DNA of 26,372 bases from a virus, in IMG/VR virus record IMGVR_UViG_3300001419_002840, positions 1 to 26,372 of that record. One strand, written 5' to 3'. The translations under genes and the position numbers were made by a program. Each line of letters starts with the position of its first letter. Within the stretch, counting starts at the first letter, position 1. The notes beneath the pieces were generated by a model. The model saw only the letters and a list, made by a program, of their open reading frames with translations, made no database searches and had not been told where the DNA came from. Below, piece after piece: positions 6,048 through 8,735 of the stretch.

Positions 6048-6105
6048 TGCCCCGCTGGTTTCGCCCGGGTTCGACTCCCGGGCCGGGGCATCCGCAATGG
6101 TGCGG
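6048..6105 (+). ncRNA. Second tRNA-like acceptor/T-arm element plus hairpin, leader of gene 6120
   Basis: TGCCCCG (6048-6054) pairs with CGGGGCA (6084-6090). Between them are a 9-nt linker CTGGTTTCG and CCCGGG/CCCGGG closed by TTCGACT (6070-6076). GGTTCGACTCC again matches the tRNA B-box exactly. A following hairpin, CCGCA/TGCGG with loop ATGG (6092-6105), leads into AGGAG. Compared with 5150-5213, the T-stem shows a paired C-G to G-C exchange and the second hairpin has different bases but keeps GCA-loop-TGC. Both linkers are 9 nt and contain GGT, which could mimic the D-loop GG that docks on the T-loop. Confidence 0.6.
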
Positions 6106-6119
6106 TAGGAGACACGACG

Positions 6120-6374
6120 ATGAACGCACGGCCAGTGAAACTCGCGTCTGGTGAATGGGCCATCGAGTTCGAGCAGACGTTGCAATGGAACGCGGCGACG
6201 GGCAGATACGACCACGGCAGCTTCTGGGGCCGCGAGGCGGACGACGAAACCTTCGCAACGCGCGCCGCGGCGATACAGCAGATACACGAGTGGCACGCAG
6301 AGGACGCCAACGAGACGATGGCGTCGCGGAAGTACCAGTACCAGCAAGAGTACGCTGCTGGCATCCGCGACTAG
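6120..6374 (+). CDS. Small hypothetical protein (84 aa)
   Basis: Not recognised. The sequence begins MNARPVKLASGEWAIEFEQT and has WGREADDETFATRAAAIQQI and a C-terminal YQYQQEYAAGIRD. The composition (a short beta hairpin with GEWAIEFEQTLQWN, then GRYDHGSFWG, then a helix) suggests a small globular domain resembling phage proteins that handle a wild-type-like GxW sheet; no family can be named. AGGAG lies 8 nt before the ATG at 6120. The in-frame start at 6042 would translate through the tRNA-like element and lacks a ribosome binding site. The gene sits between two structured leaders and its stop codon is the first triplet of the conserved 6372-6450 repeat. Confidence 0.7.
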   Translation: MNARPVKLASGEWAIEFEQTLQWNAATGRYDHGSFWGREADDETFATRAAAIQQIHEWHAEDANETMASRKYQYQQEYAAGIRD

Positions 6375-6378
6375 CACA

Positions 6379-6432
6379 GGCCGAAACGCCCCGCGAGGGG
6401 CGTCCTACCGTAACGCGGTAGCCGATGAGGCC
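6379..6432 (+). ncRNA. Type II hammerhead ribozyme-like element, leader of gene 6458
   Basis: All strands of a type II hammerhead occur in order. Stem II 5' is GGCC (6379-6382), then GAAA (6383-6386), then stem III CGCCCC/GGGGCG capped by a GCGA tetraloop (6387-6402), then TC (6403-6404). Stem I is CTACCG/CGGTAG with loop TAACG (6405-6421), followed by CCGATGA (6422-6428) and stem II 3' GGCC (6429-6432). The expected cleavage site would be between 6404 and 6405. The canonical core is CUGANGA; here position 4 is C instead of U, which could weaken activity or mark a variant. The second copy at 6678-6736 keeps the same core. Confidence 0.6.
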
Positions 6433-6457
6433 GGTAGCCCCCAACAGGAGAAACACC

Positions 6458-6673
6458 ATGAGTACGCCCGCCGCCTTCGCCTATCCGTACATCGTTGCCT
6501 GGGGCAGGATGATGGGTTCCAATTGGTCGTTCACCGAACTGACCGCCGAGCGAGCCGCACGCGACGACGCGCCGTCGAACGCCATCTACCACGACGGCGG
6601 GCGTTGGGTGACCTTCGACGAGGTGACCAGCGACGCCACGCGCGACGCCATCAACCGACTCCTGCCCGAGTAG
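6458..6673 (+). CDS. Small hypothetical protein (71 aa)
   Basis: Not recognised. MSTPAAFAYPYIVAWGRMMG is followed by SNWSFTELTAERAARDDAPS and ends DATRDAINRLLPE. It looks like a small alpha/beta protein with a conserved-looking aromatic core (FAYPYIVAWGRMMG; GGRWVTFDEVTSD). The start at 6458 is set by AGGAG 7 nt upstream. An in-frame ATG at 6425 lies inside the hammerhead-like core and would add the leader MRPVAPNRRNT. Its TAG stop is the first triplet of the second copy of the hammerhead-like repeat. Confidence 0.7.
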   Translation: MSTPAAFAYPYIVAWGRMMGSNWSFTELTAERAARDDAPSNAIYHDGGRWVTFDEVTSDATRDAINRLLPE

Positions 6674-6677
6674 CACA

Positions 6678-6736
6678 GGCCGAAACGCGGGACGACGAGT
6701 CCCGCGTCCTACCGTAACGCGGTAGCCGATGAGGCC
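6678..6736 (+). ncRNA. Second type II hammerhead ribozyme-like element, leader of gene 6762
   Basis: Same layout as 6379-6432: GGCC (6678-6681), GAAA (6682-6685), stem III CGCGGGAC/GTCCCGCG with loop GACGA (6686-6706), TC (6707-6708), stem I CTACCG/CGGTAG with loop TAACG (6709-6725), CCGATGA (6726-6732), GGCC (6733-6736). Stem III differs from the other copy in length, sequence and loop but is fully paired, as expected for a conserved RNA fold. The predicted cleavage site is between 6708 and 6709. It shares the C at core position 4. Confidence 0.6.
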
Positions 6737-6761
6737 GGTAGCCCCGATAGGAGAAGACACA

Positions 6762-7184
6762 ATGACAAAGCATGTACTGACCCCGAAGGAGGCAACGTGC
6801 ATCGGACGCGAGATGGGCATCCGAGGCATCGTCGTTTGCTCGGACCCCGTTGCCACGGGCCTGTGGCAGGTTTCCATCCCCGGCGCGGCCGAAGCGCACA
6901 GGAAGATGGACGAGGACGAGTGGCGTACGTTCCTCGCGGAGTCCGGGTGGGTGCCCATGCCGTCGCAGAAGAAGGCCACGAACAAGCCGGTCGACCGAGG
7001 CCCGCACATCAAGCGGGACATCGTCATCCGCAACGGCCGACTGAGTTTCACCGTCACCAACATGAGGCACGCGGCCAGCATTCCAATTGACCTGCACAAC
7101 ATCGCCACGCACGTCGTTGCCGCATTCGCGTCCAACGACGACCTCGAATACCTCGAGGACCTCATTGCCGAGGTACGAGAGTAA
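6762..7184 (+). CDS. Hypothetical protein (140 aa)
   Basis: Not recognised. Begins MTKHVLTPKEATCIGREMGI, continues RGIVVCSDPVATGLWQVSIP and EDEWRTFLAESGWVPMPSQK, then a second half with IKRDIVIRNGRLSFTVTNMR and a C-terminal acidic helix (DDLEYLEDLIAEVRE). AGGAG lies 8 nt before the ATG at 6762. As with the previous gene, an in-frame ATG within the hammerhead-like core (6729) would add MRPVAPIGEDT. No membrane segment. Last of the four small genes that carry structured leaders. Confidence 0.7.
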   Translation: MTKHVLTPKEATCIGREMGIRGIVVCSDPVATGLWQVSIPGAAEAHRKMDEDEWRTFLAESGWVPMPSQKKATNKPVDRGPHIKRDIVIRNGRLSFTVTNMRHAASIPIDLHNIATHVVAAFASNDDLEYLEDLIAEVRE

Positions 7185-7217: not shown

Positions 7218-7655
7218 ATGGCGAAAACGACACACAACTACCAGTTGCTGGTACGCATCGCCCATGCCGTCCGAGACGAGGGCGTCATCGAGCATCCATG
7301 GGTTGAGGTCGCTCGGCGCTACTCGGACCGCACAGGCAGGGCGTTTGCACCAAGCGCATGCCAGCAAGCATTCTCGCGGTATGTACACAACAGACCCGAG
7401 CACGAGCGACGACTGTTCAAGCCGGGGGCTGTGGCGACGACCACGACGCCTGCCAACCACACCAACGGGACAACGCATCCGTCCGACCGCGTGGCGGGGG
7501 CGATGCGGTCGCTGGTCGCATTGGTCGTCGACGATGCCTTCAGCAAGGTAATGCGTAGGCTCGATGCTCACGCGGCCGCGCTCAGTACGTTGGAGAAGGA
7601 ACTGCCCGCGATGATAGAGGCGGGCGTCAAACGCGTGTTCGGAGAAGACGGATGA
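7218..7655 (+). CDS. Hypothetical protein, possible DNA-binding N-terminus (145 aa)
   Basis: Not recognised at family level. The N-terminal 70 residues are helical with many aromatic and basic residues (NYQLLVRIAHAVRDEGVIEH, VEVARRYSDRTGRAFAPSAC, QQAFSRYVHNRPEHERRLF), a pattern compatible with a helix-turn-helix or Myb/SANT-like fold. A Thr/Pro-rich linker (ATTTTPANHTNGTTHPSD) separates it from a C-terminal helical coiled-coil-like region (VDDAFSKVMRRLDAHAAALS, TLEKELPAMIEAGVKRVFG), possibly for oligomerisation. AAAGGAG is 7 nt before the ATG. Its stop overlaps the next start by 4 nt (ATGA), so it is probably co-translated with the zinc-finger/HARE-HTH gene. Confidence 0.65.
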   Translation: MAKTTHNYQLLVRIAHAVRDEGVIEHPWVEVARRYSDRTGRAFAPSACQQAFSRYVHNRPEHERRLFKPGAVATTTTPANHTNGTTHPSDRVAGAMRSLVALVVDDAFSKVMRRLDAHAAALSTLEKELPAMIEAGVKRVFGEDG

Positions 7656-8080
7656 TATCACTACGACAAGTGATGAAGGACAACCCCAACGGACGGCAAT
7701 GCTCCATCTGTGGCTTGCCGGTCAAGGCCGCGCCGCGTGGCATCCGCGCGTGTATCTGTGCGACTTGCATGGCCAAGCGCACGCGCACCGCAGCTGAGCT
7801 GGCGTCGGCACGGAAGGAGGAGAAGGAGCACGCCCACGAGCAGGAGGTGGCCGAACGCAAAGCGGCGCGGGGCATGGACGTCCTCGCTGCCGCGACCGCC
7901 GTCCTACGCGAGGTCGGGGAGCCTATGCACGTCAAAGACCTGACCGCGAAGATGATAGACGACGGGCTTTGGAAACCGCGCGGCTCGACGCCGCAGAACA
8001 CCGTGTACGCACGCATCTTCAAGGCGGCGGGGTTCAGGAAGACAGCTCCGAGTACATTTGCCCTTGAAACCGATGCGTGA
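7652..8080 (+). CDS. Zinc-ribbon plus HARE-HTH-type winged-helix protein (142 aa)
   Basis: The N-terminus has a likely zinc-binding cluster: C17-x2-C20 (CSICGLP) and CICATC (C34, C36, C39). A Lys/Glu-rich helix (ARKEEKEHAHEQEVAERKAA) leads to a C-terminal domain from about residue 75: GMDVLAAATAVLREVGEPMH, VKDLTAKMIDDGLWKPRGST, PQNTVYARIFKAAGFRKTAP. This fits the HARE-HTH winged-helix fold, a family described in restriction, modification and chromatin proteins and proposed to sense modified DNA. HARE assignment is by motif pattern (PM/L-xxKEx, GLWxPxGxTP, TVYARI). It overlaps the upstream gene by 4 nt. A second HARE-like gene follows at 8154, so the two may bind DNA together or in sequence. 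Confidence 0.7.
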   Translation: MISLRQVMKDNPNGRQCSICGLPVKAAPRGIRACICATCMAKRTRTAAELASARKEEKEHAHEQEVAERKAARGMDVLAAATAVLREVGEPMHVKDLTAKMIDDGLWKPRGSTPQNTVYARIFKAAGFRKTAPSTFALETDA

Positions 8081-8153: not shown

Positions 8154-8735
8154 ATGAGCAAGCGAACGAAGACGATGCGTCCGAAGGTCGGCCAAGTCTA
8201 CATGGCCACCGTCGATGGGGAAGACCACGAGGTCACCATCATCGGCAAGAGCAAGCGGCACCCCGACAAGTACCGCGTCTCCGTGGACGGGTCGGCGTCG
8301 GTGATGGCGTTGGTCGCCCCGAAAGACCTGCATCCGACGCCGGTCGGGGGCAACGACGACAACGACGCGACGCCTCCCGCGAAGAAGGCCGGCAAGAAGG
8401 CCAGCAGCAAGAAGGCCAGCAGCAAGAAGGCCAGCGGGAAGGCCAGCGAAAAGGCCAGCGAGAAGACGGCTCGCGCGCCTCGCAGGTCGCTCATCAACGC
8501 CGCACTCCTCGTGCTGGCCGGGAGCAAGAAGCCGCTCGGCGCGAAGGAGATGGTCGGCGTCGCGGAGGCCAAGGGCCTGTACAAGCCCACCGGCAAGACG
8601 CCGGAGGCCACGCTGTACAGCGCACTGCTGACCGACAAGCACAAGCGCGCCGAGCGCGTCGACCGGGGCGTCTGGCAGCTGACGGACGCTGGCCGCGAGG
8701 CCATCCCCTCCATCAAGGCCGCGTTCGAGGCGTAG
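8154..8735 (+). CDS. Histone H1-like linker plus HARE-HTH-type winged-helix protein (193 aa)
   Basis: Residues 1-62 form a small beta-rich N-terminal region (VGQVYMATVDGEDHEVTIIG, ADKYRVSVDG-like sequence). Residues about 76-110 are a Lys/Ala/Ser repeat (KKAGKKASSKKASSKKASGK) like a histone H1 tail. Residues about 112-190 form a winged helix: RSLINAALLVLAGSKKPLGA, KEMVGVAEAKGLYKPTGKTP, EATLYSALLTDKHK, ending RGVWQLTDAGREAIPSIKAA. The GLYKPTGKTPEATLY signature is that of the HARE-HTH fold, as in gene 7652. It is expected to bind or compact DNA. AAGGAG precedes the ATG by about 8 nt and a strong terminator follows the stop. The gene is preceded by its own candidate promoter. Confidence 0.75.
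   Translation: MSKRTKTMRPKVGQVYMATVDGEDHEVTIIGKSKRHPDKYRVSVDGSASVMALVAPKDLHPTPVGGNDDNDATPPAKKAGKKASSKKASSKKASGKASEKASEKTARAPRRSLINAALLVLAGSKKPLGAKEMVGVAEAKGLYKPTGKTPEATLYSALLTDKHKRAERVDRGVWQLTDAGREAIPSIKAAFEA
8380..8465. repeat. Short tandem repeat encoding Lys-Ala-Ser units
   Basis: Units of the type aagaaggccagcagc recur, shortening to aaggccagcgag, within the histone-like linker of gene 8154. It encodes KKASS/KASEK repeats and is a likely length-variable segment. Confidence 0.8.

Follow-up and report, generated by a model that had tools for sequence, protein, structure and literature searches.

Two consecutive gene junctions in the window, by which we mean the whole 26,372-nucleotide stretch of viral DNA analyzed here, each carry an element that we read as a functional type II hammerhead ribozyme, with a UNANG loop on stem I and a 4-bp stem II, cutting a polycistronic phage transcript between genes. 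We put the probability of this reading at about 80%. The elements are real, and we predict an mRNA-processing function for them with good confidence, cleavage itself being predicted from the sequence. The features of the two junctions are as follows (+, plus strand).

6120..6374 (+): open reading frame before copy 1, 84 amino acids, no family match
6372-6374 (+): stop codon before copy 1, TAG, from the sequence
6378 (+): invariant A immediately 5' of stem II of copy 1, from conservation in relatives
6379..6432 (+): copy 1, putative type II hammerhead ribozyme (R1 62.4 bits, RF02276 29.5 bits, minimum-energy fold)
6379-6382/6429-6432 (+): stem II of copy 1
6383-6385 (+): GAA of copy 1
6386-6392/6397-6403 (+): stem III of copy 1, with loop GCGA at 6393-6396
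6404 (+): C17 of copy 1
6404..6405 (+): predicted cleavage site of copy 1, after C17, from hammerhead architecture
6405-6410/6416-6421 (+): stem I of copy 1, with loop UAACG at 6411-6415
6422-6428 (+): core CCGAUGA of copy 1
6423 (+): core position 4 of copy 1, C where the consensus has U, from the sequence
6446..6450 (+): ribosome binding site AGGAG after copy 1 (ATG at 6458), from the sequence
6458..6673 (+): open reading frame after copy 1, ending at the stop before copy 2, 71 amino acids, no family match
6671-6673 (+): stop codon before copy 2, TAG, from the sequence
6677 (+): invariant A immediately 5' of stem II of copy 2, from conservation in relatives
6678..6736 (+): copy 2, putative type II hammerhead ribozyme (R1 59.2 bits, minimum-energy fold)
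6678-6681/6733-6736 (+): stem II of copy 2
6682-6684 (+): GAA of copy 2
6685-6693/6699-6707 (+): stem III of copy 2, with loop GACGA at 6694-6698
6708 (+): C17 of copy 2
6708..6709 (+): predicted cleavage site of copy 2, after C17, from hammerhead architecture
6709-6714/6720-6725 (+): stem I of copy 2, with loop UAACG at 6715-6719
6726-6732 (+): core CCGAUGA of copy 2
6727 (+): core position 4 of copy 2, C where the consensus has U, from the sequence
6749..6753 (+): ribosome binding site AGGAG after copy 2 (ATG at 6762), from the sequence
6762..7184 (+): open reading frame after copy 2, 140 amino acids, no family match

The original prediction had placed the elements at 6379-6432 and 6678-6736, and these positions proved exact to the base. 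Direct sequence comparison confirmed that the copies are letter-identical outside stem III, and that the inner part of stem III differs between them with full pairing in both (ACGCCCC/GGGGCGT with loop GCGA in copy 1; ACGCGGGAC/GTCCCGCGT with loop GACGA in copy 2). The predicted strand order was likewise found in both copies, namely, GGCC, GAA, a stem III closed by A-U, C, stem I, CCGATGA, and GGCC; the three helices thus follow the type II order, stem II(5')-GAA-stem III-UH-stem I-CUGANGA-stem II(3'). Both copies possess C3, G5, A6, G8, A9, G12, A13, A14, A15.1-U16.1, and H17 of the core, and both have C in place of U at core position 4, as had been noticed. RNA folding alone gave the hammerhead fold as the minimum-energy structure of copy 1 (-28.2 kcal/mol, z -2.9) and copy 2 (-31.8 kcal/mol, z -3.99), and the centroid folds were also the hammerhead fold. 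An intrinsic terminator, i.e., a G+C-rich hairpin with a T-run, was ruled out, since no T-run follows stem III or stem I.

A search with the Rfam type II model had been suggested as a check. Copy 1 matched RF02276 (Hammerhead_II) at 29.5 bits, below the gathering cut-off of 37 (E-value of 0.026 in the whole window and 0.0013 in 1.3 kb), copy 2 was not reported, and at the default Rfam threshold no element in the window would be reported. The alignment to 6379-6443 treats the GGCC of stem II as an insertion, which suggests that the score is low because stem II adds nothing to it. In the printed RF02276 consensus, stem II is paired at two positions only, and these seem to be shifted in register relative to C11.1-G10.1.

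Relatives were collected from viral sequences with two patterns. The first, with the core and GGCC fixed, picked out 27 stretches of viral sequence; genuine stems III and I were present in about half of them, and about 13 matches without the stems were dropped. The second, left free at stem II beyond its first pair, at outer stem I, at stem III, and at positions 4 and 7, returned at least 120 viral stretches and well over 100 related viral elements, and stem II has exactly four pairs in 142 of 148 distinct matches among those listed. In 43 equal-length relatives, the bases named as partners pair in 99.7% of helix cells, and 210 two-sided changes are spread over all three helices; the covariation score was 0.748, against 0.160 after shuffling and at most 0.114 with the partners slid. 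A covariance model (R1) built from these 43 members, neither window copy being among them, detected copy 1 at 62.4 bits (E = 6e-15) and copy 2 at 59.2 bits (E = 4.5e-14) in the 26-kb window, E-values that are not fully independent because the training set was gathered with a pattern drawn from the window copies. There was no third R1 match in the 26-kb window. With an E limit of 1, R1 matched 249 times in the collected viral loci, mostly far more strongly than this limit demands; arrays of up to 11 copies were among the matches, and 17 viral records with R1 elements (both U4 and C4 relatives) had no Rfam match over the cut-off. The architecture, the covariation, the sub-threshold Hammerhead_II match, and the placement at gene junctions together support the type II reading first made of these elements.

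The relatives form a subfamily characterized by a 6-bp stem I with a UNANG loop, a 4-bp stem II, and an A directly 5' of stem II, all of which are found in both window copies (the A being A6378 and A6677). The search pattern itself specified the UNANG loop and the inner stem I pairs, but neither the A nor the length of stem II. Of 222 relatives, 220 have this A, as do 123 of the 124 whose base at that place lies outside the upstream stop codon. Stem III tetraloops belong to the highly stable GNRA or UNCG classes in 73 of 107 cases, which fits a protective role of the hairpin. In the majority of published type II hammerheads, loop I forms a pseudoknot with the tail that follows stem II; many hammerheads are without it (PMC3088659). 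A loop I-tail pseudoknot was rejected for the subfamily, since the longest complementary run averaged 2.26 in 164 members versus 2.27 with the tails exchanged. The fixed stem lengths and the invariant A suggest a different tertiary contact, of loop I with the end of stem II; the absence of the pseudoknot counts against our main explanation, and this contact is a candidate for the one that would make cleavage fast. In eleven copies, an additional U follows core A9 ahead of stem II (CUGANGA-U-GNCC), a core variant found in loci L038, L025, L054, L155, L148, L150, and L139.

Both window elements start just past a stop codon, as had been claimed, with four spacer bases (CACA) between TAG and the element, and an AUG served by the ribosome binding site AGGAG follows 25 bases after the end of each. 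The same arrangement prevails among the relatives: a stop codon within 80 nt upstream combined with a Shine-Dalgarno (SD)-preceded start within 70 nt downstream was found for 64% of elements; the figure was 2% when the opposite strand was scored and 6% for random places. Counted on the strand of the element itself, an open frame ends within 80 nt upstream in 93% (median distance, 0) and a start lies within 70 nt downstream in 88% (median, 19), the gene calls in these counts being simple open-frame tests. No locus among those collected has copies on both strands. The GATGA of the core contains an ATG at 6425 and 6729, in frame with the downstream open reading frame in both copies, so gene callers may place the gene start inside the ribozyme.

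Such placement might also be produced by selfish cassettes that spread by recombination between junctions, their cleavage being of little use to the phage. The window copies have the stop codon, spacer, stems I and II, tail, and ATG spacing in common, as if copied, and arrays reach 11 copies. Against this, all copies in a locus point one way, which is the sense direction of the genes, neither a mobility gene nor terminal repeats were seen to accompany them, and stem III differs in sequence yet pairs, which argues that the structure is under selection. We regard selfish spread as very improbable.

In the mechanism that we propose, the phage transcript would cleave itself at each junction, once at 6404/6405 and once at 6708/6709, which would create new 5' ends at 6405 and 6709. 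The upstream message would terminate in the stem III hairpin with a 2',3'-cyclic phosphate, and the downstream message would begin with a 5'-OH on the stem I hairpin, about 40 nt upstream of the ribosome binding site. Since the open stem is stem II, cleavage would leave one terminal hairpin on each product; in the predicted folds, the upstream product indeed still ends in stem III and the downstream product still starts with stem I. The outcome would be separate single-gene messages with structured ends resisting decay, since ends of these two kinds should withstand exonucleases and 5'-phosphate-dependent decay. We infer that both the cleavage and the stabilization of the ends take place in vivo. 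Clustered hammerheads have been proposed to cut long phage transcripts into gene-length mRNAs, and tandem prophage hammerhead arrays were cleaved in vitro and, for one that was cloned, in E. coli (PMC3088659). To that published proposal we add the geometric argument of a hairpin on both products: types I and III leave hairpins on one product only, and type II is the only circular permutation that leaves them on both.

The C at core position 4, singled out as odd in the original prediction, turned out to be a recurrent natural variant and not a defect peculiar to the window phage: the C4 pattern occurs in 27 viral stretches. The same pattern with a purine (A or G) at position 4 gave one viral match, L162, dismissed as chance because its stem II is unpaired, and other core changes in the viral search were equally rare (G5A, 0; G8A, 1). 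U4 is far commoner than C4, the GGCC class alone accounting for more than 120 viral stretches; in 84,980 bacterial and archaeal genomes, the C4 pattern was not found and U4 was found in 70 stretches. C4 copies keep the 4-bp stem II in 27 of 29 cases, and they keep the UNANG loop as well. U at position 7 is present in 24 of 29 C4 copies and 74 of 138 U4 copies (Fisher p = 0.004, relatedness ignored). C4 and U4 copies share one array in 12 of 30 C4-bearing sources. In such mixed arrays (loci L001, L025, L147, L148, L150, L155, and L158), C4 occupies the position furthest downstream in 7 of about 9 independent cases, a small sample.

In the hammerhead core, the uridine turn begins with U4, whose N3 proton makes a contact to a phosphate; C could mimic this contact only if protonated. 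C4 ribozymes would therefore be slower, perhaps in a pH-dependent manner, and we infer that C4 probably slows cleavage without abolishing it. A U4C variant of a viroid hammerhead had considerably lower activity in vitro and yet supported infection, as stated in PMC3088659, so that the type II family can be said to admit C4 as a variant. The activity in vivo speaks for our main explanation and the reduced activity in this one published case against it; the reduction also lends some support to the view that the window elements are decayed hammerheads, inactivated by C4, whose hairpins persist as mRNA-stabilizing or terminator-like intercistronic structures. Elsewhere, a further core change is found in two C4 copies (CCGATAA at L158 2243-2298; CCGTCGA at L151 472-540) and could be inactive relics of this kind. 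A drifting core, however, predicts other transitions in equal numbers, whereas 27 C4 stretches stand against 0 for G5A, 1 for G8A, and the lone chance purine match, and C4 copies retain not only stem II pairing and the UNANG loop but also the single-stranded core and the invariant A. C4 recurs in many stem backgrounds and the other core changes do not, as selection on a working ribozyme would predict. This pattern of retention argues against decay, which we consider improbable.

A tuned or regulated ribozyme would refine our main explanation and does not exclude it. C4 cleavage would then be slow or conditional (on pH, Mg2+, or a ligand), leaving junctions partly uncut and setting the ratio of joined to separate messages. 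The coexistence of C4 and U4 within arrays agrees with this, as does the status of C4 as a minority form in the subfamily, with purines excluded. On the other hand, the elements showed neither a sensor domain nor a conserved switch helix, and alternative pairing of the tail with stem I (at least 5 bp) occurred 11 times, compared with 10.0 in shuffles. In both window copies, the tail GGTAG could pair with stem I in this way as a possible switch; the idea was rejected, such pairing being no commoner family-wide than in shuffles. On balance, such tuning seems rather unlikely. Somewhat less doubtful, and offered tentatively, is the combined proposal that a large, mostly unannotated subfamily uses, in place of the known pseudoknot, a contact between the UNANG loop and the invariant A at the end of the fixed 4-bp stem II, with C4 as a selected slow allele that sets how completely a junction is cut.

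The 26-kb record matches part of a 63-kb viral contig with genes that include those for a terminase, a primase, and an SNF2-type helicase, and this longer version of the phage has no R1 copies beyond the two. No match to cultured phages was obtained by blastn of the ribozyme region, and a query with the polymerase region found no close relative among them; an ATPase query in IMG/VR retrieved the same phage only, with no related phage carrying the same genes. Just ahead of both ribozyme leaders, the leader of the gene at 6120 contains a tRNA-like minihelix (6048-6090; -27.8 kcal/mol) with an acceptor TGCCCCG/CGGGGCA and a T-arm GCCCGGG-TTCGACT-CCCGGGC and without a D or anticodon arm. ARAGORN found no tRNA there, and the minihelix could be an RNase P processing signal. 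Elsewhere in the window, the consecutive genes at 7652-8077 and 8154-8732 both end in a HARE-HTH domain, and the adjacent minus-strand open reading frames at 1587-1940 and 1937-2458 share the segment DETPLELPVMNFSAKQPRDKRGRFASTGGGG, with a long glycine run.

Clustered phage hammerheads and the U4C change in a viroid have been published already. New in this analysis are a widespread phage subfamily that scores mostly under the threshold, the tertiary contact proposed for it, and the retention of C4 as a variant. As the subfamily lies below the Rfam cut-off, standard phage annotation misses it. The role of prokaryotic hammerheads has been called an open question in a review (PMC6155905), and more than 200 examples in sense orientation between stop and start codons make the mRNA-processing idea directly testable. 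Terminal hairpins on both products would explain why phages use type II at gene junctions. Besides, the C4 allele amounts to a natural experiment on a base of the catalytic core that is supposed to be invariant.

Compared with the known type II hammerheads of bacteria and prophages (Perreault et al. 2011, PMC3088659; RF02276), the window elements have the same strand order, three helices, and clustering at phage gene junctions, and the same core (C3/G5/A6/G8/A9, GAA, A15.1-U16.1, and C17). Unlike these, the window copies have C4 and a 5-nt UNANG loop on a 6-bp stem I, and their subfamily is without the loop I-tail pseudoknot and falls mostly below the Rfam cut-off. The Streptomyces phages Tefunt, Diane, and Daudau (Omarvirus and Caelumvirus) also carry many type II hammerheads at consecutive junctions; however, their arrays mostly pass the Rfam cut-off, score only 17 to 45 bits with R1, and show a pseudoknot of the loop I TGG/tail CCA flavor. 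The viroid U4C hammerhead belongs to a viroid RNA and is without the type II phage architecture. Its likeness to the window copies is the U-to-C change at core position 4 (Ambros and Flores 1998, as cited in PMC3088659). Twister-P5 (RF02684), a ribozyme of unrelated fold, adjoins C4 hammerheads in two phages, forming mixed ribozyme arrays (L021 4450-5348 and the L161 record [G020] 488-540); none was found in the window's phage. Finally, the HHphage element of haloviruses HF1 and HF2 differs in having a core insertion near C3 where the window copies have U4C, but it too combines a variant core with a place in the leader of a phage gene, a short way before the start codon, and the 5' end of the HF1/HF2 transcript maps within 3 nt of the hammerhead site (PMC3088659).
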